From: Mortierella sp. BCC40632
Lineage: Eukaryota > Mortierellomycota > Mortierellomycetes > Mortierellales > Mortierellaceae
Assembly: GCA_011634665.1 (NCBI GenBank)
Contig: WAEK01000003.1
Span: forward strand, 3,442,782 to 3,506,781
Length of the DNA stretch: 64,000 nt
Reading direction: 5' to 3'
Shown: positions 32,564 to 59,365 of the stretch, in pieces
Position numbering within the stretch: position 1 is the stretch's first letter
Layout of the letters: each line of letters starts with the position of its first letter
The notes under the pieces: model-generated
The model's database searches: none
What the model saw: the letters and a program-made list of their open reading frames with translations, nothing else
Told to the model about the DNA's origin: nothing
Program-made: the position numbers and the translations under genes

Positions 32564-33750
32564 TCACTGGCATCTTCGACCAGCACCACTCTCATTGAGG
32601 CCTTTGACCTGAAGATATGTGTTGTGGAGTACAGCTATTGTCTCTTGGAGGTACTGCAGAGTGCACTTTCTTCTTTTTTTTGCCAGCAGGGCTTGATGAA
32701 TCTTTTCTAAGAGTCTCATCAGCTGTGCTTCGGATTCTTCAAATACTCTTGCGTTCTCTGCCTCTCTGGCTACTCTTGAGGCTTCCATCTTCTCAGCCCT
32801 CTGCTTCTGGAGCAAAAGAAGTAGTTGTGGAGAGAGCATCTTCTCCAAATCCAAAGATGAGTCGAGTGTGTTGTCGCCATTGTCCGTTCCTGCCGAGAGG
32901 GTCCCTGCTGGTTCACCTTCATAGCTGACCTCTACTTCGTGGTACAGTCTTGACACAAGGTACATGTGCTTACAGGGCTCCTTGTGACGAACGTAGTCGT
33001 TGCAAGTGCAAGAAAATATACATGAAAAATTTGACTTCGCACTGACATGATGCGATTCGCCAGAATCAGAGAATGAGCGAACCACAAACTGTGGAGAGCA
33101 AATTAGTTAAAACAGAAACCATACAAACACAAGTAATATCATTTTTTCAAACACGACATACCCTTTTTTCTTGAAAAACTTCGGTAACCATGTCTTTCGC
33201 ATCAATAAATGGTATCACCATCGCTTTTTCTTTCCTTTCTGCGGCCGACTCGGAAAGTGTAATGGGTTGTAACCCGCGGCTAATCTTATAGTACGAGGTT
33301 CTAAAGTCAATGTCGACAGATCCTTGAAGTAAAAACACCAGGTCATCTGGGCGTAAGTCCCTCGCAAATCCCAAGTACTGCCTCTTGAAGGTTTTGTGCC
33401 AGCTTTCAACTAAGTTATTTGTGTTGATATGCTGGTTGTTCTAAAATTGCAGACAGCCATTAAAGTTAGTTGCAAGCAACTTACAAAAAAGCAGGTGTCA
33501 GTGAAGGGTTGTCTCTCACCTCTCTGTGGAAGAGGGCCCATTTCGTTATTCTGTTTGGTTGCATCCATGTCTTAATGTAGGCGATCAGCTTCTTGGCGCG
33601 TGGGAATGCCACTTGAAACTTCCTCCATGCTTCTTGGAGCTCAGTCTCGGAGTCGGCTTTCCGAATTGCATTCAATGCGGGACGCATCCTGACGCTATCT
33701 TCATCCTGATGAAATGTACAGGCCACAAGGGCATTGTCTATGGTCAGTTA

Positions 33751-33789
33751 TCCCTTAAACCGTAAGGTTTGGTAGGCAAATTTGCCGAT
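33751..33789. repeat. Left terminal inverted repeat with subterminal palindrome
   Basis: TCCCTTAAACCGTAAG perfect over 16 bases with the other end, followed after a six-base spacer by TAGGCAAATTTGCC. GGCAAATTTGCC is itself a perfect palindrome, and CCTTA...TAAGG can pair, so the end may fold. Confidence 0.85.
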
Positions 33790-33891
33790 TTAAAAAAATA
33801 ATAATGAGTGGTTAGATTCCATTGAGCGAGCACAAAATACAGGGTATGTTTGTTTCAAACAAGAAATACTTACTGAAACAGGATAAATAAT

Positions 33892-33910
33892 GTCGAGTTC
33901 CACACTCGAC
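33892..33910 (-). ncRNA. Hairpin between Fanzor ORF end and element end; candidate guide-RNA region
   Basis: A perfect 7-bp stem with five-base loop (GTCGAGT / ACTCGAC). Fanzor and TnpB guide RNAs usually derive from the 3' end of the ORF and downstream sequence up to the element end, so the interval 33751-33930 is the place to look. The hairpin alone does not prove an RNA. Confidence 0.25.
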
Positions 33911-33928
33911 TTTGGCTTCCCATTGTTC

Positions 33929-36900
33929 CTATTGACTTCGGCGCAAGAACCATGGCCACTCCATCTTCGACAGCCAGTGGTGAACCGCCATTGCCATGTT
34001 TTGCCCACCATTCACGTCGCGGTTGCGTGCTGACTCATGCTTGGCTTCTGTGTTGGCTCCCGCTGCACTGGCTCTACTGGACTTGACGTTATGACACTCT
34101 GCCTTGCAAATTATCGATCTCTTGTTCTCCTCCGTGCTGTCGCCACAGAGACAACATCGCTGCGATGTGTTGTACTCGTCAACCAGACACACAAAAATAC
34201 CCATCCCTAGTGCCTATTAGGCAGCAGTATCATATTAAAATCATAGTCTTGAAAAAAAAAAAATCCTTTTGTCCTACGCCTTTACTTACATCTGGCACAG
34301 TCTCTCCAGCACGAGATACGTTCCACTCGTTCCACCATTAAATGGCTTAAACACTCCGTCTCCAATGGCAAGAATGACCTGTCGCTTGGATGGCAGACTG
34401 GGCTTTGGCAGGGGTTCTTGCATCTCCTCTGCTGTCTCCAGATTGGCGATGCTAACAGCCGTCTGCAGAATATGTGAAAGGCGCTGGTCTATCTCTGATC
34501 GATGTCTTTGCTGCTTTTTTGGTACTTGAGGATCTTGTAGGACATGGATCCGTAGAATGCTCCAAGCAACCCATCAGCACCAAGTTTCGACCGGACATGC
34601 TCCTCACTGTTCTTGGAGAGTTGTCGCAGTCGTGACTCTTCTGGAACCTTGCCAGGGTCCTCAACGGTTACTGGAACAATCGCTTGCTCTGCTGTATTGA
34701 TATCATCCGTCTCCTTGGCAAGCTGCATCAGGTGCCTGATCCACTTTGTGTGCCTGTTGTACGTTCCCCTGGACAAGTGGTGATTTGAAGCCCGGTCGGG
34801 TCGGGCGCTATCAACTATCACCGCTGTGATGAGCTCGGCAATCCCAGGGTCAACCCCAATCACCACACAGCTTTTTCCCGACAAGCCTGTCAACTGTCTC
34901 CTTATTTTTGAAGAGCTCGGTGACATACGGGATAGAATTCCGACCACCGTTGAGGGGTGTGCAAGAGATTTGCTGGCTTTTGGACATGGGGTAGTACTGC
35001 CTGTCGCCTCTGCATCGCCTTTAGGACTCTGAACCTTTTTGGTCTTGGGATCCAGTGCGCGATAGGCAAGTAACCGGAGCTGATATCCGTCTGTTACGAT
35101 TGTTCCACGCAAACAATGTTTGTGGTGTGGGTGTAGCTGCGGGTGTTCGGTATTGGCTGATTTTACATCTAGATTGCCCATCTGATGACATTTCGCTGCC
35201 TTCAGTGCAGTGATCCATTTTTTGCCTTTCCGACAAAACCGACTCTTCAGCTCTCCATAGCTCCTCTTGGCCGCAGTCCCCTCAGGTTGTTCAGTATTGC
35301 TCTTCCCTCGCCCAGGCAATTGTTTGGCTGCCTCTTCAAGCTCCTCTTCCGCTGTAGCAACCGCCAAGCCAAAAGAGTCAAACAGTCCCGGAAGCTGGGA
35401 TGTCGATGGTCTCCCAACACAGGTTGTTCTGTCATAGTTGGTCTTTTGTCTTCCTCCGACAAAGAGCCTGTAGCAGATCTCGCCTGGATGATCTGAAGCC
35501 CTCTTTGCCGCCTCAGCCTGAGTGGAGACTCCCAGCAGTTCTTTGATTATCCTTTGTTTTGCTTCGTTGACACGGTCCTGTCGAAAGATTGCGCGGACAA
35601 GATACTGCTCGGGGACTGTAAGGAAGGCTGTCGTGTCTCGAACAGCAGGGGCCAATTTCATCCGCTCCAGAGCTGGTAGTTGGAGGTTGAGAATCGTGAA
35701 GACCTCGGCCTGGCTGTACGCTTTCGACACTCCACTTTCCTCCACTGCTGCCAACATAGCTGCGCCCTCTGTCGATTGGGCCCATGTCGGGTTTCTTTGG
35801 CGTACCTATAAAAGATTGGCATTATTAAGATATGTTGAAATGCTGGACAATTCAAACTCTCAACATGGAAAGGTTCATGCTACTTACTCTGCTGATCAAC
35901 TCTGGGACAAACTCGACAAATGTCTTGCGCAATAATTTGTGAAGACTCTGCCCCGACCCTTCAAAGAAGCAGTGGGGTACTTGGCCCTGAAGGTGCGACT
36001 GAAATTGTTGTCGCTGCTGATCAAAATCAGTCCCGGCTCTCTCGGCAAAGTCGCTGACCACTTCCTTGGCGAGGTTCATGCCTGGTGTCCCTCGCTTTGT
36101 CTTGTCACCGCAGTAGAGGTAAATTATAAGTTGTCGACAAAAAAAATCCTCTGTGTCTACCGTCTGTAACCTTTTTTCGATCCTCTACTTGATTGTCCCT
36201 TGCAGAATACATGTTTGCGACTGTCCTGGCAATGAACCATTGGATGACATAGAGTGCAAGTTTAGTGGCCTCTGAGTTGCACTTTTGCTATCGCTAGCAG
36301 TGTGTCACCAATGTACTGTGCGGCTGCTCTGCGTTCTGTTTCTGATATAGAAGGAAGCCGTTCTTTGAGAACTGATTCTACTCGCCACTGGATTGGATCG
36401 CGCTTCTGGGTGATACAGTCAGATGTTGAGTTTAATACTTGGTCAATCAGGTTACCGGGCGATACTCTATTAGATGCTCCTGCTTCCGACTTGCTTTCTG
36501 CTCCCAGGGCCGTTTGAACAGCAAGTCTTGTAGCCTTTTTGCCCTCTTCAGCTTTCCGCGTCGTCGTTTTGTTAAAGGCTCCAGTGGGGTCCTTGCCTCA
36601 CTTGCTTCGATCGTTGTCAGAGAATTCGCATCTTGTTCGTTTCTGTCATTCTCATCGGTTGGCGCTTCTCGCTTTACAGCCCTAGTGAGAAAGATGGGTT
36701 AATCTTGCCCTTTTTTTTTTTTTTTTTTTTTTCCTTAACCCAAGCTGCAACCTATATTGAAAACTTGCCTTTTGAGGAGCCGCTTATCGTGAACTGGCTG
36801 CTTGTCTCAGAAGAACACTCCCGTTGTGGATTTTTAGATGTACTGGTCTCGACTCCCGAACGAGCTGTGCGCCAATTGTCAGTCTCGCCTTGACCAACAG

Positions 36901-37120
36901 CTGGCTCAGAGATCTCTTCTTCCTCTTCTTCCTTTCTCGGAAAGTTGTCAATCATTCCCATACCACGAGGCTGGGTGATTTTGAGAGTCGGGACATTTCG
37001 TTCCTTGGTCATATGTCTTGTAGCACCGCTCTCGGCCTGGATTCGCATGGCGTTTTCATTCCGCTGTTCATCAGCACGCCGAAACGAGAACGAAGGTCTT
37101 GACAACGCTTGCGCTGCCAC
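33929..37120 (-). pseudogene. Fanzor (eukaryotic TnpB-like RuvC nuclease), interrupted frames
   Basis: The RuvC-I motif CVVIGVDPGIAELITAV lies at about 34870-34820. Downstream: ILAIGDGVFKPFNGGTSGTY (34360-34300), CLVDEYNTSQRCCLCGD with the first zinc pair (34190-34140), and RuvC-III NRDVNGGQNMAMAV (34030-33980). The order VDPG, GDGxF, VDEYxTSxxCxxCG, RDxNGGxN is that of Fanzor proteins, RNA-guided DNA nucleases of eukaryotic transposons. The N-terminal ~350 residues are charged and disordered (from ATG 37120), then helical (ALYVIQWFIARTVANMYSAR, VPHCFFEGSGQSLHKLLR). GT-AG introns are seen, for example ending at about 35805 (TTTTATAG) and starting at 34297 (GTAAGT), so this is a eukaryotic gene. 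Frame changes occur at an A6 run (near 34515), an A5 run (near 36530) and near 36270. Catalytic Asp residues are intact. Confidence 0.8.
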
Positions 37121-37230
37121 TATGCCTATACAAGTTTGAAAAAAAAAAAAAAAAAGAGTTGATCATTAAAATAATGTCCCCTGTCATCAACTGGCTGCAG
37201 GCTTTGGAGAAGATTCAGTCCTACCCTGCG

Positions 37231-38331
37231 TCACTGCTTTCTCTTTTTAATCCTAGTGTTGAGCTTGCGAAGCTCCTCGGGGAATTTCTTGGCTGCACTC
37301 AACAACTGGTCCGATAGGCAAAGTATCTCTGAGGGCGTCGAGGGAGGCACTAGTGGTGTCTCCTCTGCGTGGATGAAAATTTTGGTCGCATCGTCAAACT
37401 GGCTTGGATCCACTTCAAGAGCTTTGGCATACCCTGCTAACAGCGCTTGCACCGTCCTTTGACCTGCAGGCAATCGATCCCATAGTCCAACAAGAATTTT
37501 CTGGTTCTTGTTGATGCCATACCCCCTTGACATTTTCGCAATAGTCGTTCCCCGAGGTGATCGCCACTGCTTGCCATACCACAAAGTCCGGAACCCTCAG
37601 TTGTCCCAGGGCCTCGTCGTTGATCGTGTACAGCCAGAATGTGGACTTGATAGCGCGGTCTTGACTGATCAAATGAATGTTGGGGGTAAAGAGCATATCG
37701 CTATCGACTGTCGCTACATAGATCCGTTGTCTAGACCCCAATGCTTCGCGCCTAATGCAGTTATCGGTCTCGCCAGAGCAAACATGAGCGCGGTGGCCAA
37801 GAGCCACGAGGTCATTGGCAACCTTGACCCGCATGCCCATATCGATCCGTATTGAACACTTCCAGGAAGCCATCATGTTCACAAATGCCCGGAGTAGGCG
37901 TCGGCGCAAGTTGCGTGCTGAGCGATCCCCACCATCAGGATACTCCTGGTTTGGTTGAATTGCTGCGTTGAATGCGGACAGAGAGCTGGAACATTGCTCA
38001 CGACTATCCACTTCATTTTGCGATCGATGTTTCCTGGCGACGACCTTTTCAGCGATAGGGAGTCCGTCGATGTGGATAATCGCGTCATTGGAAAAGCTGA
38101 GTTTGAGTTTCTTGCTTATTGCTTTGGCGATCCAGTCGGGCTCTTCGTCTGGCTCCTTGCCCCTGGAAGCCAGGCGCAGCAATTTCTTCTGGAACCAAAA
38201 AGAATGGCAAGGAGATAGGATAAATAGAGTGCAAAGAGGTCGACGTGGACAGAAGGAAGCTCTTTCGGATCTACTGCAGACCGTAGGATACCAGCTTTTG
38301 CAATAGTCTTCCAAGCTTGTTTGACTGTCAT
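37231..38331 (-). CDS. FEN1/XPG-type structure-specific nuclease-like protein, with frame breaks
   Basis: Starts MTVKQAWKTIAKAGILRSAV (38331), like the MGxKGLWxxLxxxG start of XPG/FEN1 proteins. Metal-binding acidic positions are all recognisable: VHVDLFALYL (first Asp), AIIHIDGLPIAEK (second Asp), HVCSGETDNCI (the ExE pair reads E-x-D), VATVDSDMLFTPNI (DxD) and ITSGNDYCENVKG (last Asp and helix-3-turn-helix). The frame changes at about 38210, where a splice acceptor-like TTGGTTCCAG is also present, and at a G5 run near 37530, after which YGINKNQKILVGLWDRL continues the H3TH region. It ends at 37231 with a Lys/Arg-rich tail, 110 bases before the Fanzor start. Carriage of such a nuclease by a transposon is unusual. 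Confidence 0.7.
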
Positions 38332-38449
38332 TTTTTAATGGCTTTGTAGGCTAGTTGGGTGAATGTGAGAGGGGAGAAGTGCAAACAAAGAAAAAAAAGG
38401 AGATTTTTGTTATTTTCAACAGCCCAAATGCTCGTGGATGTGGGAAAAA

Positions 38450-38870
38450 GGACTATTTTGGGGGGGGGGGGAAAGGACTATTTTGAAAAAGGACTCTTCT
38501 GAAAAAAAAAAAAAGGACTCTTTCGAAAAAAAGGACTCTTTTGAAAAAAAAAAAAAAAAAAAAGACAGGCGCTGCTAATACTTACACTGGCACAACCTTT
38601 TTCAAAGTACCAAATGAGGCGTAAAACCGTTGCCAATTTGGTCCGCTCAGGCCTTCTCCTGAGGAGAGGCCCGTGCTTGATGTTCCATACTCACATGCAT
38701 ACTGCCCCAAAACCTACTGCCCCAAAACCTACTGCCCCAAAATCCTACTCTCTCTCTCTCATATCCTACTCTCTCTCTCAAATCCTACTCTCTCAAATCC
38801 TACTCTCTCATATCCTACTCTCATATCCTACTCTCTCATATCCCTTTCTTTTTTTTTTTTTTTTTTTTTT
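38450..38870. repeat. Low-complexity block between FEN1-like and unknown gene
   Basis: 38450-38560 has four or five degenerate AAAGGACTCTTTTGAA units mixed with G11 and A runs; 38700-38845 has CCCAAAACCTACTG triplets, then many CCTACTCTCT units; a T26 run follows at 38848-38873. Likely promoter-side spacer of the minus-strand FEN1-like gene. Confidence 0.7.
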
Positions 38871-38972
38871 TTTTTGGACAAATAACACGCAACACTCGAG
38901 GAGTGAGAATACATTCGTCCGGGTTTATCGACAAAAGGAAAAAAAAAAGAGGAAATACACATGCTCTGTTTG

Positions 38973-40143
38973 CTATTTTTCATTGGGCCAAGTCGTTATC
39001 TTCAGAAAATGAGACAATGCGCCTACGCCTGAATGCATTGCCTCATGAGGGTCGCGACAGCCTCGATTTGCTTGTTGCGGTGAGGGGGGGATAAGAAGAA
39101 AGACTGCAGCCAAGAAAGCCAAAAGGAAGAGGTGACCTCGTGTCTTTACAGCAGCCTTTGATAAATTGTATTTCACTACCAGGAGCAGGTACTTTTGCTG
39201 GATCGCCTCGCGGTCTGTGCATTGGTCATCGGCGTGTCTCTTTTTCCACTCAGTCTTGAACCTTGACCTCAGGTTGATCAGATGCTGGACAACTGCTTGT
39301 TGCTTGCCTTTTGTTGCCACAGTGGCAATTGCAAATTGCTATGAACCGGTATTGGTCTCCCACGCTGCACCACACCAATGCGTTTGCAAAAGCCACTATC
39401 GCCTGTTCTCTCGTTTGAGAATCGTGGATGTCGATGTCGCAAAAGATTTCGTTTCCTTCTTTAAGGATGATGTTTAGGGATTCTCGCCTTTGATAGCATC
39501 TTGAGAGCGGAGCCAATTCAGGGCGGTAGAATATTTGAGGCGTCGCTGTAAAATGGCGGTTGATGGCTGATATGCAACAGACCTCTGGTTCTCTTCCGGG
39601 ATAGGATCATCCAGGTCAATGGACAGAGTAGGAGGAGACTCTAGTATGATTGTTTTGGGATAGCTTGGAGGTGACTGAATCTGTGTTGGCTGGTGTTCTC
39701 GACGATTGTTGTTCTCCACTTCCATATTATCTTTTTGCTAGCCTGGCTTTGAGCCGTCCTATCGCACTGGCCACGGATGATGAGCAGGACCAAGACTTGG
39801 CTGCTTGACTGTCTAAGGCATAGACGGAAGGGTTGCGGGAATTGGTGGGGAATGGCATCATTCTCGCTCTGGCTCCGGTGTTCATGCCATGGTCAATATC
39901 TTCGACAGGGGTGCCGTAAACAATGAGATCCTGTGGTTGTTCCTGAGTCAAGGAGTCTTCAGTCACATTGATCTTGTTGTCAGTGTCAAGAATGCTGCTG
40001 TCAAAGACCATTTTCATCAGTATCGGCTGGAAAGGGTAGCCATTATCTCTTTCTGCGGGGGGTGGGAGGGTTTTATTTTTTTTTTTCTGGCCGGACCGCA
40101 CGGACCTTCTATTGATAGACACAGTGGATGGTGCCAAGGCCAT
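38973..40143 (-). CDS. Unknown protein gene of the Fanzor element (frame-broken)
   Basis: Blocks on the minus strand: 40143-39727 (MALAPSTVSINRRSV...GRLKARLAKR-stop), 39725-39474 (PPTLSIDLDDPIPEENQRS, LQRRLKYSTALNWLRSQDAI), a one-base frame change at about 39476, then LNIILKEGNEIFCDIDIHDS and TREQAIVAFANALVW (to about 39370), then 39320-38973 (QQAVVQHLINLRSRFKTEWK, VKYNLSKAAVKTRGHLFLLA). I recognise no domain. It is the only candidate here for the element's own mobility protein, but no catalytic motif was seen. Boundaries and exon joins are uncertain. Confidence 0.45.
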
Positions 40144-40164
40144 GGATCAGATCCCCAGCAGAAG

Positions 40165-40325
40165 TGAAACATGTATATGGGCTCCTTAAGTTGGTTCTGA
40201 GAACTGGATTAGAGGTGTTTGAGAGGGGACCCGACTACTCGGGGAGAGGAACCCCTCTCGGGTCTGCGATGCCTTTTTGGGATGTGCAGGAAAAAAATGA
40301 AAAAAGCTTATTCCATATGGAGTAA
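40165..40325. repeat. Dispersed repeat segment, inverted relative of 31385-31545
   Basis: Lies just upstream of the unknown gene (which starts at 40143). Shares GACTACTCGG, CCCCTCTCGGGTCTGCGATG and TTTTTGGGATGTGCAGGAAA with the reverse complement of the other copy. Confidence 0.6.
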
Positions 40326-40799
40326 GGATGCGATTATGATTTTGTGAATCTCTGGTCTTCAACACTTAGAAGGAACAGAGAGTGTACAAGAGCCTCTCTG
40401 GCAATGATTTCAAACACAGGAACCAAAAAAGGCGCGTTTGAAAGCAGCACTCCTATTGAAGGTACAAACAATCTTGATCGCAATGAACAGACTGCCCACA
40501 TGGCAGCAAGATAGAGACCGAGCTTTCCCCCAAGTAGTGTAAAACATACTCCAAGCCATGTCGCGCTTAACTGAAACTAAACCTGTCATCATCGAGGGCT
40601 ACCTGGACTTGAGATAAGAGGAGCACGTTTAACCATACGGGGGATCAATCCAGCAGCTCAAGTTGAAGTGGATCGGGCTTGTGTCCATTCCTTGCTTCGG
40701 TGCGTAGTTTGAATTGCTAGTTTCTGACCTTAGAGATTGGGGGGATGTCTCATAAAAAACTTTTGAGAAAACTGCTGAAAACCATCAAAATGTTAAAGT

Positions 40800-40835
40800 T
40801 AAATGGCATTTTTGCCTAGCTTACGGTTTAAGGGA
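40800..40835. repeat. Right terminal inverted repeat of the Fanzor element
   Basis: GGCATTTTTGCCTAG then CTTACGGTTTAAGGGA, followed by TA. Perfect 16-base match to the left end after reverse complementing. Confidence 0.85.
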
Positions 40836-41806
40836 TAACGTTTTTGGTTTCTCTCACAACATCTATTTTCCTAACTTACTTTGTGCAGTTCTCTCAGCTT
40901 TCGTTCCCATGCTTGTCCAACATGGAATAAACAATAATATATCTCCATGGTAGGGTGTGGGAACGCTCTCTTCAGAGCTTCTGTCTCTGCAATTGAGCAA
41001 TCAATCATGAACTTGGATGCACGCATCCCGCATTCGTTTTTCAGCCACGTTAGCCATTCTGCGATCACGTAGCTATCGTAGAATGAAGCAACAGAGGAAT
41101 CAGTACAGCTTCTTTGAAAATTGTGTCCTGAAGCCGGATCAAATGAATAGGTATGGAAAAGGCTTAGTACCTTGACTCCGAGTTACAAACCATGAATGCT
41201 ATTGGTATTCCTGCTTGAATTTTCCGGTCCTTGACCAGAATCGTGAATAGGTATGCAGAGGCGTATACTTTGTCATTTTCTGGGCTCGGCATCAGCGATT
41301 TAACTGCTTTGTGCGTTGAGTCCATGCACAAGATAGTGGTATTATCTTTCATGATCTGGTTGTCAATGAAAACAAGGTGAGTATTTGGTCATTTCATTGT
41401 TCAACGTGCCGTACGATGAGCCATGTGATCACCTACTTTCAGTTGGAACCGTGTGCACCAGGCAAATAGGTAATGGTCTCTGTTCTGATGGACATCACTC
41501 TTGAACATACTTTTGCCTCCTTCGTCATTGATCTGGTCAAGCCAAATCTTCACACTAAATGTTGGACTGAGGGCTTTACGAGACTGCTTCGTTCGGTTAC
41601 GGTAAACTACTGTTCGAACATCATCATACATCATGTACAGACATGGGGGCAGCGAGTTGGTGCACTCTTGATCCTCGAGCTATTGCAAAATAAATGAGAA
41701 TCGCAGCACATGAGTGGGAAGAGCAAAGACTAAAATTTAAGTGATAATTCGAAAATTCTTCAGAAATGTACCTGACGGAGAATCCAGTTGTCAAGACGGA
41801 GCCGTG

Positions 41807-41999: not shown

Positions 42000-42605
42000 T
42001 TAAAAATTTAGGTCGTGTTTCTGCTTGTACTCGTCCACAGTTTCCTGGCAATGTGTAAGATCCTTTACTTTTTCCCATGTTGCCTCGTCTCGAGAGTAGC
42101 CCTTCCATAAAATAAGGAACTGATGCTGCCGTCGATAGTACCGATAGTCCAGAATACTGTCTACTTCAAACTCTTCTTCTCCATCGATGATTTCAGGCTC
42201 TGGTTCTGAATGTACTGTTGTCCGAGGGCCGAGTGATTCTGGCGACTCTTCATAGTGTCGGAAACGATCCACATGGAACACGTCGTGTATTTTCATTGTC
42301 GGAGGTAATTCAACTTTGAAGGTGACAGGGGACAATTGCTGAAGGAGTGTGTAGGGTCCAATGAATCTCGGCTTCAGTTTATCTGATGGTCTGTTTTGGT
42401 CTGCTGGGATAGTGATATGTTCCGCGTTGAGCAAGACTTTGTCGCCTTCTTTGAAGCTGTGCTCGATCCTATGTTTGTCTGCGTTCCAAGTCTGCCTTTC
42501 CTGTGCGAGTCGAATAGAATCCTGGGCCTCCTTGAGTATCCTGCTCTGGTCGCTTACAAAACTTTCAACCTTGGGAGCTTTAGACGGTTGGGGTTGGAGT
42601 AGAGC
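42000..42605 (-). CDS. Element A integrase C-terminus and chromodomain
   Basis: Reads SFKEGDKVLLNAEHITIPAD, KPRFIGPYTLLQQLSPVTFK (integrase GPY region), [16 protein letters not shown], and the chromodomain VDSILDYRYYRRQHQFLILW followed by KGYSRDEATWEKVKDL. Ends HDLNF-stop just before the polypurine tract. Upstream it joined the integrase core at 47667 before B was inserted. Chromodomains of gypsy integrases direct integration to particular chromatin. Confidence 0.85.
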   Translation of the reverse strand, partial: ALLQPQPSKAPKVESFVSDQSRILKEAQDSIRLAQERQTWNADKHRIEHSFKEGDKVLLNAEHITIPADQNRPSDKLKPRFIGPYTLLQQLSPVTFKVELPPTMKIHDVFHVDRFRHYEESPESLGPRTTVHSEPEPEIIDGEEEFEVDSILDYRYYRRQHQFLILWKGYSRDEATWEKVKDLTHCQETVDEYKQKHDLNF

Positions 42606-42610
42606 GGATG
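42606..42610. repeat. Target-site duplication of element B (left)
   Basis: GGATG, repeated at 47662-47666. Confidence 0.9.
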
Positions 42611-42680
42611 TGTACCAGTATAAATAGACCCTCCCTCCCCCTCTAATAAACAGCAGCTCTTCTGACCCCTTACTGTTGCA
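42611..42680 (+). repeat. 5' LTR of element B, 70 bp
   Basis: Begins TGTACCAG, has TATAAATAG at positions 9-17, AATAAA about 18 bases further on, and ends ACTGTTGCA. So promoter and polyadenylation signal are packed into 70 bases. Confidence 0.93.
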
Positions 42681-42882
42681 TGGCAGCAAAGGTATTCTGA
42701 TTCACCCTGAACCCTGGCCCCTGATAATTTTTTTCACAACGTCCGCTATAACCACTCCCACCCTGAGCCCCTCCCCCCTGACCCCCCTGACCCCTGCCCC
42801 CCCCCTCCCAACCCCCCAAACACCAGAACCTTGCCTACTCCTTGATCCCCTTGTTGAAGCCTTATCACGTCTCGATATCACA

Positions 42883-44074
42883 ATGTCCTCCGAAGCCCAA
42901 CCCTCTGCCCCTTCCTACCGTTACCCCCATCCTGAGAAGTATCAAGGTAGCCGCGATGGATTCACTGCCCTGACATGGCTCCGCAGTGTGAAGCGATATT
43001 TTCTGGCGACGGCCACACCAGATTCAATCAAGACAGTGGTCGCTGCTTCCCTTCTAGGCGATGCAGCAGGACAATGGTTCGACGGTTCCGGTCTCGCCGA
43101 TGATGCTGACTTTGCCGAGTTTGAGAAAAAATTCAAGTTGGCTTACATCCCCTCCGACTTTGACCAAGTGCTGCGATCAAGACTGGCGACTCTGAAAATG
43201 ACCACTACTGTTGATGCTCATGTCGCCGAAACCAAGCGCCTCCCTTACGGCTCTCCTCGCCGATGCCACCTCGGACTTTACTCGTGCCGAGCTGGAGAAG
43301 TTTGCACACGTCTCCTTTTTGGAAGGATGCCCCAAGAACTTACAGCAACTCCTCAGAGCTCTCATGATCACTCAGGTTTTGAATATCTACCAACTCCTCG
43401 AGGCAGCCGAGCAGTACGACAGAGTGTACAACTTTACACCAGACAACCCAAGGAATAACCAGTCGGGATTCGTGACAACCCAAGCTTCCGTTGTGGCAGC
43501 ACAAATGCAGGCTCCAGCATCTGGCCCAACCCCGATGGAGATCGATAATCTTCGAATGGAGATCAATGCCCTCCGACGACACCTCCAAGGCTCAAGCCCC
43601 CTCCCAAAATTAACTGACACCGAAAGGAAAAAGCTCATGGCCAGGGGTGCTTGCTTCAAGTGCCGCCGTGATGGACACCGCGCAAATGAGTGCCCAGGCA
43701 AAAATGGCGGTCGGCATGTGAATAACATAGCGACCGATGGGGGGCACCGGCTCCGCGGAGTCGGGAAAAGCCTCGAGCGACCGGGATTAGTCCAGGACCC
43801 GGCCGCTGAAGCTCCCTCCTCCTTGTCTCTGGACAGGGGGAGTGCAAGTAGTCTAGAGTTAAGTATTAAAAATACGGAGAATAAAATTGTTTGTACCCAC
43901 TCCACCTCACTACCCACTCCTCCTATTGAAACTCCCCTATTATGTAAGAAAGACCCTGACCTACCCCCAACCCCTGACCACATGTTTTCGGACCCTCAAT
44001 CTGACTTTTTGTCAGTGAGAAGACAAACTCGTGTGCGACGGTGGACCTGGACCCACTTGCTCCCTCGTCTTTAG
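42883..44074 (+). CDS. Element B Gag, frame-broken
   Basis: Starts MSSEAQPSAPSYRYPHPEKY, with gag-like GFTALTWLRSVKRYFLATAT and AAGQWFDGS; the frame changes near 43215 and continues TRAELEKFAHVSFLEGCPKN. A single zinc knuckle CFKCRRDGHRANEC (CX2CX4HX4C) lies near 43650. Gag packages element RNA into virus-like particles. Two frames are needed to read the whole protein. Confidence 0.8.
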
Positions 44075-44137
44075 ACTCTCCCTCCAAGGATACAAAGAAA
44101 TCAAAAAGCCGAAAAAAGATTAAGCTTTTGTTCTTTT

Positions 44138-47100
44138 TTGTCTCTCAAGGACGCAGAACGGACTCTGCTGACATTCATTGGCTCTGTGAATGGTCACCCA
44201 GCAAAAATATTGATCGACGGTGGTGGTGCTGAAGGTAATGTCATCAGCTACTCTTTTCAGAAAGAAACACTCCATTCCCACCACCTCAATCGACCCTATC
44301 CCTATTGTCCTCTCCCAAACGGCTCTGCATCATTCGCGGCGAATGCATGCACTATTCAACTACAACGAGACAAGTATGATGACTTCATCGATGCAATCGA
44401 ATACAAGTTATCAAAAGTACGACTTAATCCTCGGAAAACCTTTGGCTCACACGGATCAACCCCGTATCAACTGGCAGACAAACGACTTACACTTCCGACA
44501 CAATGGCAATAAGGTATTCTGGTGCTGTTCGGAGTCAGACGCCCCATCACTTACCCGTACCACCGATGAATTTGTCTTGAGCCCCATCAACTTCCACTCC
44601 ATGATGACCCAACCAGGAAGTGAGGTATTTATGGCACTGGTCAACCTCGCTCCCAATGAGGCAGAAAAAGAGACACCTCCTGAAGTGACCCCGATCCTGG
44701 AAGAGTACTCCGACGTGTTTCCCAAAACACTTCCTGATGGCCTCCCACCGGACAGAGGCGACGAAATGCACATCGAGACTGACCCAACAGCCGACCCCCT
44801 GTTCGACCTGTTATTCGTCTTTCAATTGCCGAACTGGATGAGCTTCGTAAGCAACTTGATGAGCTATTGAAAAAGGGATTCATCAAGCCAAGTACTTCTC
44901 CATATGGTGCCCCTGTCCTTTTTGTGAAGAAGAAAGAAGGTACATTGCGTATGTGTGTCGACTACCGGGGATTGAACCGTATCACAAAAGAAAAACAGGC
45001 ACCCTCTTCCACGCATCGATGAGCTCATCGATAGGATCCGAGACTCCAAGTACTTTTACCAAGCTGGATCTAATGTCTGGCTATCACCAACAGCGCATCT
45101 ATGGCCCTCATACGCACAAGACGGCTTTCCGATGCAGATATGGCCACTTTGAATTTAATGTTATTCCTTTTGGATTGACCAACGCCCCTGCTGCTTTCTC
45201 GGCAATGATGCGAAAGGCTATGGACCCACTTCTCGACAAATGCATTGTTATTTATCTTGACGACATTCTAATATTCTCCAAGACAAAAGAAGACCACCTA
45301 GAACACATCCGAAAAAGTCCTTGAATTACTCCGCAAGAATAGACTTTATGCAAAAGCTCAGCAAATGTTCATTCCTTCAAGAAGAGACCGAGTTCCTCGG
45401 CCATATCATCTCCAAGGACGGTATCAAGCCCAACGGTGGTTTGATCAAGGCTATCCAGGAATGGCCTACCCCTGAGAAGCAGAAAGACGTACAACAGTTC
45501 ATTGGTCTTGCTCAGTTTTATCAGCAATACATCAAAGGGTTTGCTGACATTGCTCTACCACTAACAGCACTACTCGGAGAAGGAAAACCGTTCAAGTGGG
45601 GAGATGAGGAGAACAAGGCTTTCCTCTCGCTCAAAGACGTCATGACTAAAGCACCAGTTCTCATTATTTACGACCCTGATCGCGCAACCATTGTGGAAAC
45701 TGACGCTTCTGGATTCGCCGTGGCAGCCGTATTACTCAAAAGGACGATTCAGGACAATGGAGACCAGTTGCCTTCACCTCAAAGAAAATGAACTCTGCCG
45801 AACGCAATTATCCAACACATGAACAGGAGCTATTGGCCGTTGTCCATGCACTTAGAACTTGGCGCTATTATTTGGATGGAAAGAAGTTCACTGTCAACAC
45901 CGATCACGCCACTCTCCGCCACTTTCCAACCCAGCCCAAACTCACCAAAAGACAGGCCCGATGGATGGAGCTATTACAAGAGTATGATTTCCAATTCCGC
46001 TATAAGCGTGGAGCCGACAACATTGTTCCTGATGCTCTATCACGACGCCCCGATCTAAAAAATGACCCGCCCTGTACAATTAATTCAGTGGAGGTCTCGC
46101 TTGACCCAGGTATTAGGCAGCGCCTGATAGAAGGCTATATGACCGATCCTTGTCTGAAGTCGATCTATGAAAGCTGCCTCCAGGGAAGTCCACCCCCCAC
46201 GCTACCATCTGAAGAAGGATTTGCTTTTATGTTTTACGCCGGGGTGACACCTTGCTATGTATTCCTCGCAAAGCTGACATTCGTCTCGATCTATTGCATG
46301 ATGCCCACGACTCTGCCATAGCAGGACACTTGGGATTCGACAAGACATATGACAAGATAAGAAGGATTGCCTTCTGGCCCAAGATCGCGAGGGACACCAG
46401 GCTTTATGTGCAATCGTGTGAGAGCTGTCAGCGCAATAAGCCTAGCAACCATCGACCAGTAGGACTACTCCAACCCTTGACAGTACCCGGACAACGATGG
46501 GAAACCGTGACAATGGACTTTGCAGTTAATCTACCCAAGACTCCTCGAGGATATGACGCAATCGCAGTATTTGTTGATAAATTGTCGAAGCAAGTCCACT
46601 TTGCCCCTTGTAAGACTACGGATACAGCAGCCGATACTGCAAGGATATTTTTCGACAATATATTCAGACTACACGGGATGCCTACGACCATTGTCTCAGA
46701 CCGCGACACCAAGTTCTGCAGTCACTTCTGGCAGGAACTGCACAAGCTCATGAATGTTAAGTTGGCTATGTCGACAGCTTTCCACCCCCAGACAGATGGA
46801 CAGTCGGAGCGAGCAATTAGGACACTCTCATCAATACTACGAGCATTTGTCGATCAAAAGCAGACCAACTGGGACCTCTTTTTGTCTGCTGCCGAATTTG
46901 CATACAACAACTCGGTCAACCCTACCACTGGATACTCGCCCTTCTTCTTGACCATGGGCTGCCACCCCTAGACTCCCCTCATCTCTTCTCCAACCTACGG
47001 AAACCAGTGTACCAAGTGTGGATGACTTTGTCAACGCTCAGTCCTCCAGCCTCCAAATAGCCCAGGAAAATATCCGTTTGGCACAAGAGAACCAGGAGTG

Positions 47101-47581
47101 GAATGCAAATACAAAGCGTGTGGACCATGACTACAAAGTTGGTGATATGATCATGCTGAACGCAGAGAACATCACCATCCCAGCATACAGCACAAGATCA
47201 TCGAAAAAGCTGCAACAGCGCTTTATTGGACCATTCCCCCTCCTGGAAAAGCACTCACCTGTTACTTTCAAGGTTGAACTGCCTCCTGCCATGAAAATCC
47301 ACGATGTCTTCCATGTGGACAGGTTCAGACACTACCACCCTTCACCAGAGGACCTTGGAGCTAGGACTCCTCCACGACCTGACCCCGAGATAGTCGACGG
47401 CGAAGAGGAGTACGAGGTAGAAGAAGTGTTGGAGTACCGAAGGCACAGGAGGCAACACCAATTCCTAGTTCGCTGGAAGGGATACACTAGAGAAGACGAT
47501 ACCTGGGAACCAGTCAAGAACCTAGAGCATTGCCCCGATCTAGTAGAAAAATTTAAAAAAGATAATGGGTTGGATTTTTAA
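44138..47581 (+). CDS. Element B Pol: protease, RT, RNase H, integrase, chromodomain; frame-broken
   Basis: Protease-like [20 protein letters not shown] (44160) with GG in place of the usual [60 protein letters not shown] and the catalytic [13 protein letters not shown] (45250). RNase [14 protein letters not shown] and [13 protein letters not shown]. Integrase: [71 protein letters not shown]. Chromodomain: [20 protein letters not shown] then [14 protein letters not shown], ending GLDF-stop at 47581. A frame change with stop occurs at CACCCCTAG (46965-46973), and others near 44500, 44830 and 45010. Confidence 0.85.
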
Positions 47582-47591
47582 AAGGGAAAGG

Positions 47592-47661
47592 TGTACCAGT
47601 ATAAATAGACCCTCCCTCCCCCTCTAATAAACAGCAGCTCTTCTGACCCCTTACTGTTGCA
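47592..47661 (+). repeat. 3' LTR of element B, 70 bp
   Basis: Base-for-base the same as 42611-42680 by eye; followed by the GGATG duplication. Confidence 0.93.
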
Positions 47662-47666
47662 GGATG

Positions 47667-50654
47667 GGATACGGGGATGGTAGCCCATGTTCAAAAAGAA
47701 GGGAGAGTAACCAGTTGTTGGGTTGACCGAGTTGTTGTATCCAAATTCGAGTGAAGGTAATGAAAGATCCCAGTTTGTCTGTTGTTGATCTATGACAGAC
47801 CGGAGCATCGTTGTGAGAGTTTGGATTGCGCGTTCTGATTGTCCATCTGTTTGGGGGTGGTGTGCAGTTGACATGGCTAGTCTTGTGTCCATTAGTCGAT
47901 GTAACTCCTGCCAGAACTGACTAGTAAACTTTGTATCCCGATCTGACACAATAGTTGTTGGCATTCCATGAAGTCGGAAGACATTTTTGAAGAAGCAATG
48001 GGCCACGTCAACAGCTGTGTCAGTTGTTCTACTTGGTGCAAAGTGGGCCTGCTTTTGATAGTTTGTCGACAAAAACTGTGATTGCATCGAATCCTCTCTC
48101 TCTGTTCGTGGTAATTGAACGACAAAATCCATTGTTACTGTTTCCCATCGCTGATCTGGGATTGGAAGTGGATGGAGGAGTCCTGTTGGTGCACGATTGC
48201 TATGTTTGTTCCTTTGGCAACTCTCACAAGTTCTGACGTACGTCCTGATATCATTGACTATCTGTGGCCAGAATGCAAAGCGTCTCAAGTTGTCGTAGGT
48301 TTTATCGAATCCCAAGTGTCCTGCTATGGCTGAGTCGTGTGCATCATGGATAAGTGAGTGGCGGATGTCAGCATTCCTGGGGATACAAATTACTGATTTG
48401 CCTCGTCGTAGTACGTGGAGTAGGCCATCGAATATAGCATATCCTTGAGGTGGTTGTCCTTTCATGCAGCTGTAATAAATAGGCCATAAACGGCTGTCGT
48501 CTCTGTAGCTAAGGATGAGTCGTTTTCGAAGATCGCGGTCCAGAGCTATTTCCATGGAATTAAAATCGACAGGTTGGGGTAGGGAGTGGTCAGGTCGGGG
48601 GAGAGAGCGTCTGATACGATGTTTTCCGATCCTTTCTTGTACTTGAAGGTGAAGTCGTACTCCTGAAGGAGTTCCATCCAACGAGCTTGGCGACGGGTGA
48701 GCTTCGGTTGTGTAGGAAAGTGTCGTAGGGTAGCATGATCGGTGTATACAATGAAATGTGTTCCATCGAGATAGTATCGCCATGTTTTCAGGGGGCATGT
48801 ACAACTGCCAACAGTTCCTGCTCATGTGTTGGATAGTTCCTTTCTGCTGAGTTCATTTTGCGAGACGTGAAGGCGACTGGTCGTGACTCTCCATTTTTGT
48901 CTATCTGAAATAGGACAGCTCCCACAGCAAATCCAGATGCATCTGTCTCCACGGATGTAGTCAATTCAGGGTCAAATATCCTGAGGACTGGTGCTTCACT
49001 AACAGCTTTTTGAGGGCGATAAAGGCTGACTCATGGCTGTCATTCCATTCGAAGGGGACGTCGTCTCCTAAGAGAGATGTCAGGGGCAGAGCTATCTGAG
49101 CAAAGTTGTTGACATAGTTATGGTAGAACTGAGCGAGGCCGATGAACTGTTGAACTTCCTTTTGCTTTGTTGGTCGAGGCCATTCTCTGATAGCTTTGAC
49201 GAGTCCAGCGTTTGTTTGAATGCCATCCTTGGTGAGAATGTGTCCCAAAACTCCGTTTGTTGTTGTAGAAATGAACATTTGCTGAGCTTTGCGTAGAGGC
49301 CGTGCTTCCTGAAGAGAGAGAGAACTGTTCGTAGATGGTCCAGGTGTTCTTTCTTGGATTTAGAGTAGATTAGCACGTCGTCTAAGTAAGCTACAACAAT
49401 TTCGTCCAAGACAGGGTTCAAGACGGTGCGCATCATTGAAGAGAAGGAAGCTGGGGCGTTTGTCAGACCAAAAAGGAACAACATTAAATTCATAATGTCC
49501 ATATCGGCAACGGAAGGCTGTTTTGTGGGTATGCGGTTCGTAGACTCGTTGTTGATGGTATCCTGATAAGAGGTCGAGTTTCGAGAAATACTTGGCACCT
49601 CTGAATCTGTCAATCAACTCGTCAATTCGAGGCAGAGGGTGGCGGTTCTTTTTGGTGATTCGGTTGAGACCTCTGTAATCCACACACATTCTGAGGGTTC
49701 CTTCCTTTTGCGAACGAATAGGACGGGAGCGCCATAGGGTGATGTGCTAGGCTTAATGAACCCTTTTTTCAACAGGTCGTCTAACTGCTTTTTAGTTCAT
49801 CAAGTTCAGCGATTGAAAGTCGAATGACAGGTCGGACAGGTGGATCGGCGGTAGGGTCGGTCTCAATTCGCATTGCATCTCCTCTGTCTGGTGGGAGTCC
49901 ATCAGGGGAGAGAGTCGGGAAATACATCAGGGAACTCTTCCATAACTATTTTTCGGATTTCAGGGTCAGCATTTTCCAAGGGGTTGGTGACAGGCTTGAC
50001 ATTTCCTTCTTTGAGTAGGGCAATAAAGACTTCACTACCAGGAAGGGCGGCGATGGTGTTGAAGTGCATGTGGCTAAGGAGGAGTCCACCAGAGGTTGTC
50101 GTTACTGAAGTGGGTTTGAAGCCGCGACATGTCCAGTGAACTGTCTTTCCGTTGTGATCAAAGACTAGTTTGTTCGTCTGCCAGTTGATATTCGGGTTGA
50201 TGTCAGTGAGCCAGGGTTTACCGAGGATGATGTCGTATTTTTGGAGGTCATAAGCGATAGTGTCTACCGTGTCAGTGTAATTATCGCGTGCAAGTGTAAT
50301 GGTTGCCGTGTGGGATGTCGTAGATGAAGAGCCGTTAGGGAGGAGGACTGGGATGGGGTTGCACGACTTTACGGGGATCGAGTGTTGGGATAAAAATCGT
50401 TTGCTGATAACATTCATTTCAGCCCCGCCATCGATTAAAATCTTTGCAGGGTGGTTGTTGACTGCGCCGATGAAAGTAAGGAGTCGTTGTTGAGCCTTTG
50501 CAATAGTGAAGCTATGAAGACCCAATCCTTTCTTTTTCTTCGGTTTGTGTGTTGACTCTGGCGATGGGTCTAGCTGTAATTCAGGAGCAGGTGGGTCCAG
50601 GTCCACTTTGTCACTAATACAAGCCTTCTCCTCAGTCTTTGACGACGTTGGCAT
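47667..50654 (-). CDS. Element A Pol: protease, RT, RNase H and integrase core; frame-broken
   Basis: Minus strand. Protease-like [20 protein letters not shown] followed by GGAEMNVIS (50490-50400). [57 protein letters not shown] and [14 protein letters not shown] (49400). RNase H between about 48980 and 48600. Integrase: [83 protein letters not shown] up to the B insertion. The RT frame breaks at a T5 run (CCTTTTTGG near 49470); element B has T4 at the same place and reads through. Confidence 0.85.
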
Positions 50655-50853
50655 TGGTTCATGGATGTTTGTGTGGGCCTTGGTTGGGTCGTGAGTATTA
50701 TTGTCATTATTTTTCTGAGGAGTGGACGAAGTAGAGTTGAATACTTTTTTTTTATTTTTATTCGCTTGAGAACTTAACTCTGGTCTTGGAACACTCCCCT
50801 GATCCAGGTGGATGGGAGGAGAGGGGTTTCAGCAACTAAGCCCTGGACTGATC

Positions 50854-51748
50854 TTAATTGCTGGGGCCTTTTCCCTGCTCGGGCTGAGGGGGAGAGGTCT
50901 CTTCGGATTCTATGTTGTTGAAACGTTTTCCACTGCGACATTCGTTAGCCATATGTCCATCCTTGCGGCAGCGGAAGCAAGCTCCTCGTTGGCGGAGTCG
51001 CTCGCGTTCTTGTGGCGATAGTTTGGGTGTTGATGAGGGGCGGGAAGAGAACTGTCGACGAAGGGCGTTAAGTTCGGTCCTGAGGTTATCAATTTCCATA
51101 GCCATCGGGTCTTTTTGAGTGCTGTTGGAACCGGAGGGGGAAGAGGGACCATGGTGATTATCGTGGGAGAAATAACTGGAGGGGTAGAGGATATCGTGGA
51201 CGATTGTTGCCTCGGTGATTGCTTTTTTCAAGGGTCTTGGGTTGGCGTAGTCGAACCTGTTTAGAAGTTTCTGGATCGAGGCCACGAAGAAACCGGAAAA
51301 GTGAAGCGTCCTTGTCTTCCTTTGGGATGAGACGAAGGTATCTTCTGAACTCATTTGTATATTCAGCGACGCCTCTTTTTCCTTGGATCAGATTTTCCAA
51401 CTTTAAACGAGCAGCGTGGACAGCATCAGGAGGCGTGAACCTTGCGATAAACGAAGCGCGGAAATTCTCCCAGGGGGTGTCAATCTTGATCTCAGATGTG
51501 CGCCACCAAGAGCGTGCGTCTTTTGTGAGGGCAAGTACAAAGTACCGAACCCAAAGATTCTTGGAGAGCTGTAAGACAGTGAAATACTCTTCATAGCTAT
51601 CGGCAAAATTTAGACACTCTTCAGCATCGATAATGCCACTAAAGGGCTCGGGCTTGGGCGGTTTGAGGACGGCGGCAAGGGTTCTTGCTTGATCATTCGC
51701 GGCCAATCCTTGAAGAATGGAGGCGGAGGCGTCGGCTTCTTGGCTCAT
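50854..51748 (-). CDS. Element A Gag, frame-broken
   Basis: Starts MSQEADASASILQGLAANDQ; the capsid part reads AEECLNFADSYEEYFTVLQL, DARSWWRTSEIKIDTPWENF, LIQGKRGVAEYTNEFRRYLR. The frame changes at an A6 run near 51227 and continues AITEATIVHDILYPSSYF to a zinc knuckle CFRCRKDGHMANEC near 50960. Unlike element B's Gag it has no sequence similarity obvious by eye in the capsid part, although the Pol proteins are close. Confidence 0.8.
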
Positions 51749-51895
51749 GATGGAAAGGGAAGAAAAATAATCGGAAAGGGGGTCTTGATCTTGGGGTACT
51801 TGGGTTGGAGTCGTGGGGTCCGAGGGGTGGCAGGGTTTCGAGGGGGGAGTCGGTGTCAGAGGGGTCGGTGGAAAGAGATTGTACCTTTGCTGCCA

Positions 51896-52079
51896 TGCAA
51901 CAGTCAGAGGCCAGGGGAGTCTTTGGTTTGGGCAGTTTATTGCTAAAGATTAAAGTAATGAGAAAGCTAACTATTTATACAAGTGGTTTGGTGGCAAATG
52001 GAAGGGGGCGCGGCAGTGGTGGCAACTGGACAGTCACAAATAGTGGCAAAGGGCGCAGCTTGAAGAGGACACTGTCGCA
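51896..52079 (-). repeat. 5' LTR of element A
   Basis: 184 bp; one extra G (CCAGGGGAGT versus CCAGGGAGT) relative to the other LTR. Confidence 0.92.
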
Positions 52080-52628
52080 CCGTGCCTTAATCGACTTCCA
52101 GTCAAGACCATTTTTAGCCATGTCTTTGACCCACTTGAGCTCTATCCCACTTAATGGCAACCTTGATCTGGCCTTTGGTGAATCGTCGTGGTTATGGCGC
52201 CAATGGTATTCCACTTCTATTGCATCTTGGTCCCGTAGTTTTCGCATTCTGATTCTGGCTGGACATCCACTACCAACAGATGCCCGGCTAATTTGTAACA
52301 GCGAGACAGGACGGTGCCTTCGACAACAGAACCGAAAGCTCCAATCGTACAATGGTGGTCTTCCAACAGACCCTGAAATCTTCGTATGAGTTGGGAGCGG
52401 ATCGTTGGCATTCTCCCTTTTTGTGGGGATGTGTCGAAGTCCTCCTTCGGTTCTCCATTGCCATTGTACAGCAACTCGCTCGGCGTGCCAGAAGGTCTTG
52501 AATTCCTCGCCCGTGAATACTGTCTTCCACACATCTTCCGTCTTGGGGAATGAGAAGGGCTCGGCGAAATTACGGGGGTCGAAATCGTCCGCTATCAGGA
52601 AGACGTCTCTAACCCTCAAAACACTCAT

Positions 52629-52711
52629 GGCTGTTTGAGGTAATCGAAAGGGAAGTGGGACAGGAGAGAGGGATAAAGTGCAAGGAGGAAACCAGGTTCC
52701 AAAAAAAATAA

Positions 52712-52742
<31 letters not shown>

Positions 52743-52899
52743 AAATCTCCGATTCCACCCGATCTCGATACTAATTGGTGGAAGAATCGCTTCTAGTGTA
52801 GCCAGTCATATTGACCTCAGGTTAGGACGGGAAGATGGTCACCATTGGGAACTAGGCGTTTAATGTCAATATAATGCAATAAAAACATACCGCGCTCCA
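52629..52899. other. Short region between MULE start and Myb/SANT-like gene
   Basis: Contains an A30 run at 52711-52740; no gene. Confidence 0.5.
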
Positions 52900-53985: not shown

Positions 53986-54101
53986 GGACGATAAAGTCGA
54001 CTTGGCTCTGCTGTTGAAATGAACAAAACGGTGTGGCAGCCATTCATGATTGAGACACAATGTTGGTGGATCATCAAGATGGGAGCTTGTGACCTGTGGC
54101 T

Positions 54102-54113
54102 TGTCATGGGTTC
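54102..54113 (-). repeat. Outer 12 bp of the element D 3' LTR, cut off by C1
   Basis: TGTCATGGGTTC; continues at 59366 after element C1. GGTTC is duplicated by C1 (54109-54113, 59361-59365). Confidence 0.75.
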
Positions 54114-54380
54114 TGTAACAAGGCAAGAGGAATAGGGAAGGAGAAGAACAAGGACAGGGACTAGGACAAAGGCTAGGGACAAGAAGTGAGTTACTAACTG
54201 ACGTTTATTGAGAAAGAAAGAGAGGAAATAAATACTAGAGAAGATATGTAGAAAAAGGGGTGAACCCTTTCCATGGAGCGCGGCAATGGGGGAAGAAAAT
54301 TCGTGTCCGTCCGTACAGATCGAAACATTCCAGCAAGGACATTCTCAAAGAGACGCACCAAGGTAGCATACTCTTTGACA
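54114..54380 (-). repeat. 3' LTR of C1
   Basis: 267 bp, TGTAACAAGG...CTTTGACA on the plus strand. Confidence 0.93.
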
Positions 54381-54389
54381 CTCCCCCTC

Positions 54390-59057: not shown

Positions 59058-59093
59058 AATGGAGGTGGTGGAAGGGAACTTCCTTTGCTACCA

Positions 59094-59360: not shown

Positions 59361-59365
59361 GGTTC

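Follow-up and report, generated by a model that had tools for sequence, protein, structure and literature searches.

A FEN1/XPG-like nuclease predicted to be joined to a Fanzor in transposons of Mortierella sp. BCC40632

Organization of the element, its copies and its nuclease parts

The stretch of DNA analysed here (the window, 64,000 nucleotides) comes from Mortierella sp. BCC40632 (assembly GCA_011634665.1, contig WAEK01000003.1, positions 3,442,782 to 3,506,781). A decayed transposon copy occupies positions 33749-40837 on the minus strand of the window, and it carries a FEN1/XPG-like nuclease part and a Fanzor part that most likely belong to one spliced gene. Read along that strand, the FEN1-like part (37225..38331, recognized by profile and conserved positions) is followed by a junction intron (37126..37224, GTAGGA...TATAG), a linker exon (36752..37125, lower boundary approximate), a second Fanzor exon (35855..36660, approximate boundaries), the main Fanzor exon (34283..35805) and the last Fanzor exon (33929..34204), all on the same strand, as the initial annotation of this DNA had it. 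In the window copy frameshifts affect both the FEN1-like part and the main Fanzor exon, the second Fanzor exon is decayed and the junction is out of phase, although it is in phase in sister copies.

The element is bounded by terminal inverted repeats, for which no strand is assigned. The arm on the Fanzor 3' side, TA included (GTTATCCCTTAAACCGTAAG, 33747..33766), is identical over 20 bp to its partner on the other side (40820..40839), and similar ends were found in a piggyBac-bearing element. A scan of the window with up to 3 mismatches recovered only these two ends, with 0 matches in 100 shuffles. In the whole genome (49.9 Mb, 62 contigs), at up to 2 mismatches, the 19-base terminal pattern occurred 33 times and the reversed pattern used as control did not occur. 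With up to 3 mismatches the figures were 55 and 33, a point against the interpretation developed below, and because the reversed control also matches at this level the weaker end matches carry little weight.

Nine two-ended copies of the family (L009-L017) were recovered from 20 fetched regions. Five of them are about 7.1 kb long and 97-100% identical to the window element (the window copy, L010, being counted in), and the other four, of 4.6-5.1 kb, match it piecewise at 72-84%. TA is present at both ends of 9/9 copies and no duplication beyond TA was seen by eye in them; the perfect repeats with TA flanks reported initially are confirmed. FEN1-like and Fanzor matches occur together between the terminal repeats of all nine copies; the initial proposal that both nucleases travel between the same ends is thus borne out, and no two-ended copy lacking the FEN1-like gene was found. 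Shared flanks indicate that some of the nine are not independent insertions: L009 and L012 occupy the same duplicated site, L015 and L017 have a common right flank, and the left flank of L010 is shared with the partial copy L020. At L009 (contig C1, 551399-558581) and L012 (contig C7) the 7-kb element interrupts the RuvC frame of a different, diverged FEN1-Fanzor element, and the two sites belong to one duplicated segment.

Terminal-repeat matches without nuclease genes also exist, at L021, at L023 and at L026, the last of which carries a transposase. BLAST revealed no more than a short Fanzor-side remnant in L019 and no match in L025 and L027. Elements of 88 bp resembling miniature inverted-repeat transposable elements, with similar terminal repeats, are located at 1005-1092 of L021 and 8643-8730 of L023.

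Four families carrying both parts were read: family 1 (subfamilies 1a and 1b), family 2, family 3 and family 5 (L038). Family 2 comprises 4 copies at 98% identity with the ends TACAGT...ACTGTA, and no clear terminal repeats were found for family 3. Three protein-homolog searches, each scoring only the approximately 8,000 candidates with most shared words, yielded five homologous proteins (P0001-P0005), four from Mortierellaceae species by taxonomy and one from a Mortierella sp. by name; two profile scans of viral contigs confirmed no homologs beyond the Mortierellaceae.

The FEN1-like part of an intact sister copy has 368 amino acids and starts with MGVKQAW. A single FEN1-like protein gave no match to any Pfam family and none to a FEN1 structure in PDB. 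A profile built with seven sequences of divergent members (A4) matched Rad2 (1.1e-9), FEN1 (7.8e-7) and EXO1 (1.1e-5) in PDB, with 27 of its 33 matches up to an E-value of 1 being of the FEN1, EXO1 or Rad2 type. Weak matches to the Pfam XPG models were obtained in three of seven members (best 3.8e-4), and the curated XPG cut-off was reached by none of the proteins scanned. Eight aligned positions, which we take to be D86, K93, R100, E158, E160, D179, D181 and D233 in FEN1 numbering, are kept in 7/7 sequences, with Asp at the E160 position in all seven aligned members, and D34 is kept in all six sequences that extend to it. In this part 1a and 1b are 68% identical, family 5, P0003 and P0004 share 38-44% pairwise identity, and distant members share 21-32%. 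Of the initial description as a separate FEN1/XPG-like gene with metal-binding residues, the family and the positions stand, with E160 as Asp; the separateness is not supported, in view of splice junctions and annotated fusions.

The Fanzor part was recognized by its last exon, which matches the Pfam TNB model at 33929-34204 with 1.7e-4 and 22.1 bits, a score that falls short of the curated cut-off (26.3), and by the motifs VIGVDPG, DEYNTSQRCCLC and RNRDVN, which together uphold the Fanzor-type RuvC nuclease first proposed. The last exon contains the C-terminal alternative catalytic Glu (DEYNTS, judged by eye), the zinc motif and the RD (DEYNTSQRCCLC...RNRDVN). The main exon contains the TDG motif and the RuvC-I signature VIGVDPG (codons near 34860), which reads VTAVDPG in family 2 and LCLDPG in family 3, with the variants DLG in P0003 and family 5 and DAG in P0004 and P0005. 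The TDG motif, named for the WED domain of Fanzor1 in PMC10711439, is TDGYQLRLLAYR in 1a and 1b, TDGFRLQLL in P0003 and TNG in families 2 and 3. Three homologs match TNB above the cut-off (P0003, 1.2e-11; P0004, 2.4e-9; P0005, 5e-11). Another, fourth Fanzor type (FAGTDPGIRTMSVTC, by eye) was observed directly upstream of a family 3 FEN1-Fanzor element, at 1-1964 of the reverse complement of L036 (L036rc) and 1-1657 of L037, two regions that are 98.9% identical and whose fetched stretch is too short to show any preceding FEN1 part.

The junction of the two parts and their association in the genome

The FEN1 frame leads up to a splice-like GT, and frame continuity was tested for splicing from this GT to an AG before the Fanzor exons. 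By script, 10/16 copies have a canonical GT-AG intron that brings the two frames together in phase, with each of the four families or subfamilies represented: 3/4 copies of 1b (not L014), 1/5 of 1a (L012), 3/4 of family 2 and 3/3 of family 3. The fourth family 2 copy, L031, has a variant donor and is in phase by eye. The splice path of family 2 includes a small middle exon, which differs in length among copies by an indel that keeps the frame. The linker exon, similar by eye to a stretch of P0001, contains in family 1b no Met before the sequence conserved against 1a, and its ratio of non-synonymous to synonymous substitution (dN/dS) is 0.39 upstream of the first possible Fanzor start and 0.31 after it.

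A search with a composite family 3 query revealed that relatives are annotated as single proteins. P0003 from Mortierella sp. AD011 (named partial, 1194 amino acids) covers 94% of the fusion query and P0004 from Gryganskiella cystojenkinii (1295 amino acids) covers 97%, both also showing XPG matches below the cut-off, and P0005 from Podila clonocystis (987 amino acids, 56% of the query) begins in the FEN1 tail and continues into the Fanzor. P0001 from Actinomortierella ambigua has a FEN1-like part joined to a linker-like stretch (by eye), and P0002 from Lunasporangiospora selenospora is a FEN1-like fragment. Because of the splice junctions and these annotated fusion proteins, the two parts are read as one gene, rather than as separate genes.

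A genome-wide analysis of the association has been carried out with 59 FEN1-like places, pooled from two FEN1-like queries and the Pfam XPG_I model, with exon pieces merged by hand and the four strongest XPG_I matches left out as probable host repair genes, as judged from their score. A TNB match, marking the Fanzor zinc domain, lies at most 6 kb downstream on the same strand in 35/59 places; no opposite-strand TNB match was found within 6 kb of any of the 59, and same-strand upstream matches were found at four. Conversely, 35 of 61 TNB matches have a FEN1-like match upstream, and Fanzors without a detected FEN1 part therefore also exist. With the Pfam models alone, 10/14 weaker XPG_I matches are followed by a same-strand TNB match 2.8-3.8 kb downstream. 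A FEN1-like frame of 345 amino acids with no Fanzor seen downstream is present at L033 (contig C27, 227217).

Identity matrices of the FEN1 and Fanzor parts of seven members are correlated (Mantel r 0.84, with 3/5040 permutations as high), and both trees group 1a and 1b with family 2 and then family 3, the order of family 5, P0003 and P0004 being different. Between 1a and 1b, the FEN1-like part has a dN/dS of 0.14 and three Fanzor segments have values of 0.09-0.20; dS is 1.2-1.7, near saturation, a point against the interpretation developed below. Within family 3, dN/dS of the FEN1-like part is 0.25. These substitution ratios show purifying selection on both nuclease parts.

Mobility, candidate guide RNA and other features of the element

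No transposase family was found among the nine window frames of the element or in its third open reading frame. Similar terminal repeats bound a 2,059-bp element (L026) encoding a DDE_Tnp_1_7 transposase in two frames (4.4e-37 and 1.3e-18), with a zf-Tnp_2 zinc-finger match just under the cut-off and no FEN1-like frame seen. A search with one L026 frame gave four main loci and one weak match, and three of the four main piggyBac-type loci (on contigs C18, C8 and C1) sit at terminal-repeat matches. The C8 and C1 loci are weaker support because their ends have 2 or 3 mismatches and the reversed control matches at up to 3. Mobilization of the FEN1-Fanzor element is probably in trans, through a piggyBac-type transposase that another element with such terminal repeats encodes. 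At C8 (G000:C8:1300115-1302262) a piggyBac-type element with an open 553-residue frame lies between family 1-like ends and is a candidate transposase source. At G000:C6:1119921-1134322, two family 2-like ends 14.4 kb apart have between them both a fragment of a piggyBac-type transposase and a match to the Fanzor zinc domain, so that the insertions there are probably nested.

A TTAA target duplication is a trait of the piggyBac superfamily. The target site was compared at one insertion, that in the RuvC frame of another element, by joining its flanks and aligning them with uninterrupted paralogs of 66-67% identity. The joined site has the length of the paralogs if both TA copies are retained and is 2 nt shorter if one is; this single locus, compared with paralogs of that identity, suggests that the target may be TATA without net duplication. 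Assignment to mariner by the TA flanks alone was set aside once the piggyBac-type transposase turned up between the same kind of repeats; the Tc1/mariner likeness consists of the TA flanks, the frames inspected being those of L019, L025, L026 and L027, with the genome not searched for mariner.

Between the Fanzor stop and the element end, a five-helix consensus common to 12 copies (8 distinct) was obtained, corresponding in the window to a candidate omega or right-end RNA scaffold at 33749..33910 on the minus strand. This RNA would take its guide from the host flank outside the TA. Its closing helix is formed by an internal UAUCC and the terminal GGGAUA. At two pairs both sides have changed, and 99.6% of cells pair. 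No match for this scaffold was found in Rfam. PMC10711439 reports that Fanzor1 scaffolds include terminal repeats and bases of the target site; the candidate described here is in line with that report and is suggestive only.

The third open reading frame (38976..40146, minus strand) is a passenger of the 7-kb subclass. Its family has 97 genome matches, many outside FEN1-Fanzor elements, and it gave no match in seven loci of the 5-kb class, so that it was rejected as a core gene. The third gene noted initially is thus a real reading frame, and the three-gene set does not hold as a unit, being confined to the 7-kb subclass and drawing on a dispersed family. Short tandem repeat arrays and long T runs are also present inside the element (38447-38560 and 38700-38875). 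Beside it, retrotransposon frames occupy 42000-60348; two that were scanned match RNase H and integrase models and the others were recognized by eye.

Proposed function and comparison with known systems

Fanzors cut DNA guided by an RNA ending in flanking sequence, and FEN1-family enzymes act on 5' flaps and ends. Taken as a whole, the explanation to which slightly better than even chances are given is that of a transposon, with no transposase found in it, whose FEN1-linker-Fanzor protein of about 1,000 residues would combine an RNA-guided cut with 5'-end processing that favours copy-back. The main gene would encode one protein with an N-terminal FEN1/XPG-type 5' nuclease, a linker and a C-terminal Fanzor. 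An RNA derived from the element's 3' end and finishing at the terminal GGGAUA would have the host flank as guide. With it the Fanzor would find the matching empty site, either the one left by excision or the one on the homologous chromosome. There the FEN1-like part would trim or resect 5' strands at the break, and repair would be turned from simple end joining towards copying from the chromosome still carrying the element, with the outcome that the transposon is kept and spread. We infer this cut-plus-end-processing role of the fusion from the two parts, and it is plausible that the FEN1-like part acts on the ends made by the RNA-guided cutter. The sharper claim, that a single FEN1-Fanzor polypeptide is ancient in Mortierellaceae transposons with unrelated ends, cuts by an RNA guide and then processes 5' ends so as to force recombinational copy-back, is put forward tentatively, at rather less than even confidence.

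Several observations weigh against this interpretation. The function of the fusion is predicted from sequence, and the fusion itself relies on splice signals and on gene models from other groups. Six of the 16 copies are not in phase by script (L031, in phase by eye, among them), and the 7-kb class is in phase in only one of five, frameshifts being present in every 7-kb copy read. P0003 alone found no FEN1 match in PDB up to an E-value of 1, and a three-protein profile reached Rad2 only at 7e-4. As for the association, 26/61 TNB matches have no FEN1-like match upstream within 6 kb and 24/59 FEN1-like places have no TNB match within 6 kb downstream. Seven of the latter are explained, five by Fanzor exons without a TNB match (three on C25, one on C15 and one on C6) and two by splitting through an inserted 7-kb element (C1 and C7), and 17 remain; the 35 places with a Fanzor downstream plus these seven run counter to the alternative outcome raised initially, that the FEN1-like gene is found mostly outside such elements. 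The covariation of the candidate scaffold was reached by 41/500 shuffles, and its single-strand fold is little better than that of shuffles (z -0.66). With respect to mobility, the piggyBac TTAA target duplication was not seen in 9/9 two-ended copies, which have TA on both sides, and a Harbinger-type transposase (DDE_Tnp_4, 1.4e-18) lies at 3974-5170 of L027 between weak family 1 end-like matches.

Other explanations account for part of the same data. The same fusion could serve transposition, with the FEN1-like part removing flaps or helping to fill gaps at transposase-made ends and the Fanzor only bringing it there; the shared terminal repeats do link the element to a cut-and-paste transposase, and the nuclease is encoded inside the element in 9/9 two-ended copies. 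Family 2, however, keeps the fusion with different ends (TACAGT...ACTGTA), although a piggyBac-type fragment is present within the 14.4-kb pair of family 2-like ends on C6, where it may be nested, and no FEN1-like frame was seen in the piggyBac-type L026. This explanation is considered unlikely. A lower probability is given to two adjoining genes in the same direction, kept together since both help the element and made as separate proteins. The FEN1 frame does stop close to the splice-like site in several copies, and five or six of 16 copies are out of phase when spliced, but the family 1b linker exon lacks a start codon before coding sequence that is also conserved in 1a, each of the four groups includes in-phase junctions and the relatives are annotated as single proteins.

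That the FEN1-like part is catalytically dead and only a DNA-junction binding domain for the Fanzor appears improbable: the change of E160 to Asp throughout the seven aligned members and the failure of the proteins scanned to reach the curated XPG cut-off would fit such a loss, but the other catalytic acidic residues and the active-site Lys/Arg are kept at 21-32% identity between distant families, and dN/dS of this part is 0.14. The least probable of the explanations, and a very doubtful one, is that the fusion is a weapon between transposons that cuts rivals by means of RNA from the rivals' flanks; the 7-kb copy located inside the Fanzor frame of another FEN1-Fanzor element invites it, but this is a single insertion seen twice through locus duplication.

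The closest known systems are the Fanzor1 transposons (Bao and Jurka 2013, PMC3627910; Saito et al. 2023, PMC10432273), which have the same DPG, TDG, zinc motif, RD, terminal repeats and TA flanks and, like the family described here, are often without their own transposase. Unlike them, the family described here is predicted to have a FEN1/XPG nuclease N-terminal to its Fanzor in one protein, and neither XPG nor FEN1 occurs in the main text of PMC3627910. The literature search, which covered titles and abstract starts and leaves most subscription papers outside, gave no description of a FEN1-Fanzor fusion, and an earlier description is possible. The PGv-1 mariner elements of algal viruses, as presented in PMC3627910, also combine a Fanzor with a second nuclease in one transposon, although there it is a separate GIY-YIG protein accompanied by a mariner transposase.

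With the FEN1/EXO1/Rad2 (XPG) family the N-terminal part shares the catalytic acidic residues, the active-site Lys/Arg, an MG start in most members and profile matches to solved structures; it differs in being transposon-borne, in having Asp for E160, in its fusion to a predicted RNA-guided nuclease and in a divergence too great for single-sequence searches. Terminal repeats are common to the element and a DDE_Tnp_1_7-encoding element of the piggyBac superfamily, although the Fanzor elements have no transposase seen and TA flanks instead of a TTAA duplication; a piggyBac-type transposase is accordingly a candidate partner for Fanzor elements without one of their own. Academ elements are DNA transposons that likewise carry an XPG-type nuclease; there it is linked to a DDE transposase, and these elements are not known to carry a Fanzor.

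Because a flap nuclease or exonuclease in the same protein keeps its catalytic residues across divergent families, the fate of the DNA ends after an RNA-guided cut would matter to the transposon, and the retention or homing idea for transposon-borne Fanzors becomes directly testable. A single protein joining a FEN1-type end trimmer and a Fanzor is a kind of combination that genome engineers have built by hand: Cas12a was given an N-terminal T5 exonuclease (PMC8945719), and a Cas9 editor based on EXO1 gave more homology-directed repair and less end joining (PMC11107001). The pairing of a 5' exonuclease with an RNA-guided nuclease is the same, those being man-made and the FEN1-Fanzor apparently evolved. 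If the proposed reading is true, the fungal protein would be a natural counterpart of the T5 exonuclease-Cas12a editors, a programmable cut-and-resect enzyme, and, as a natural eukaryotic nuclease and end-processor in one protein, a starting point for genome editing.

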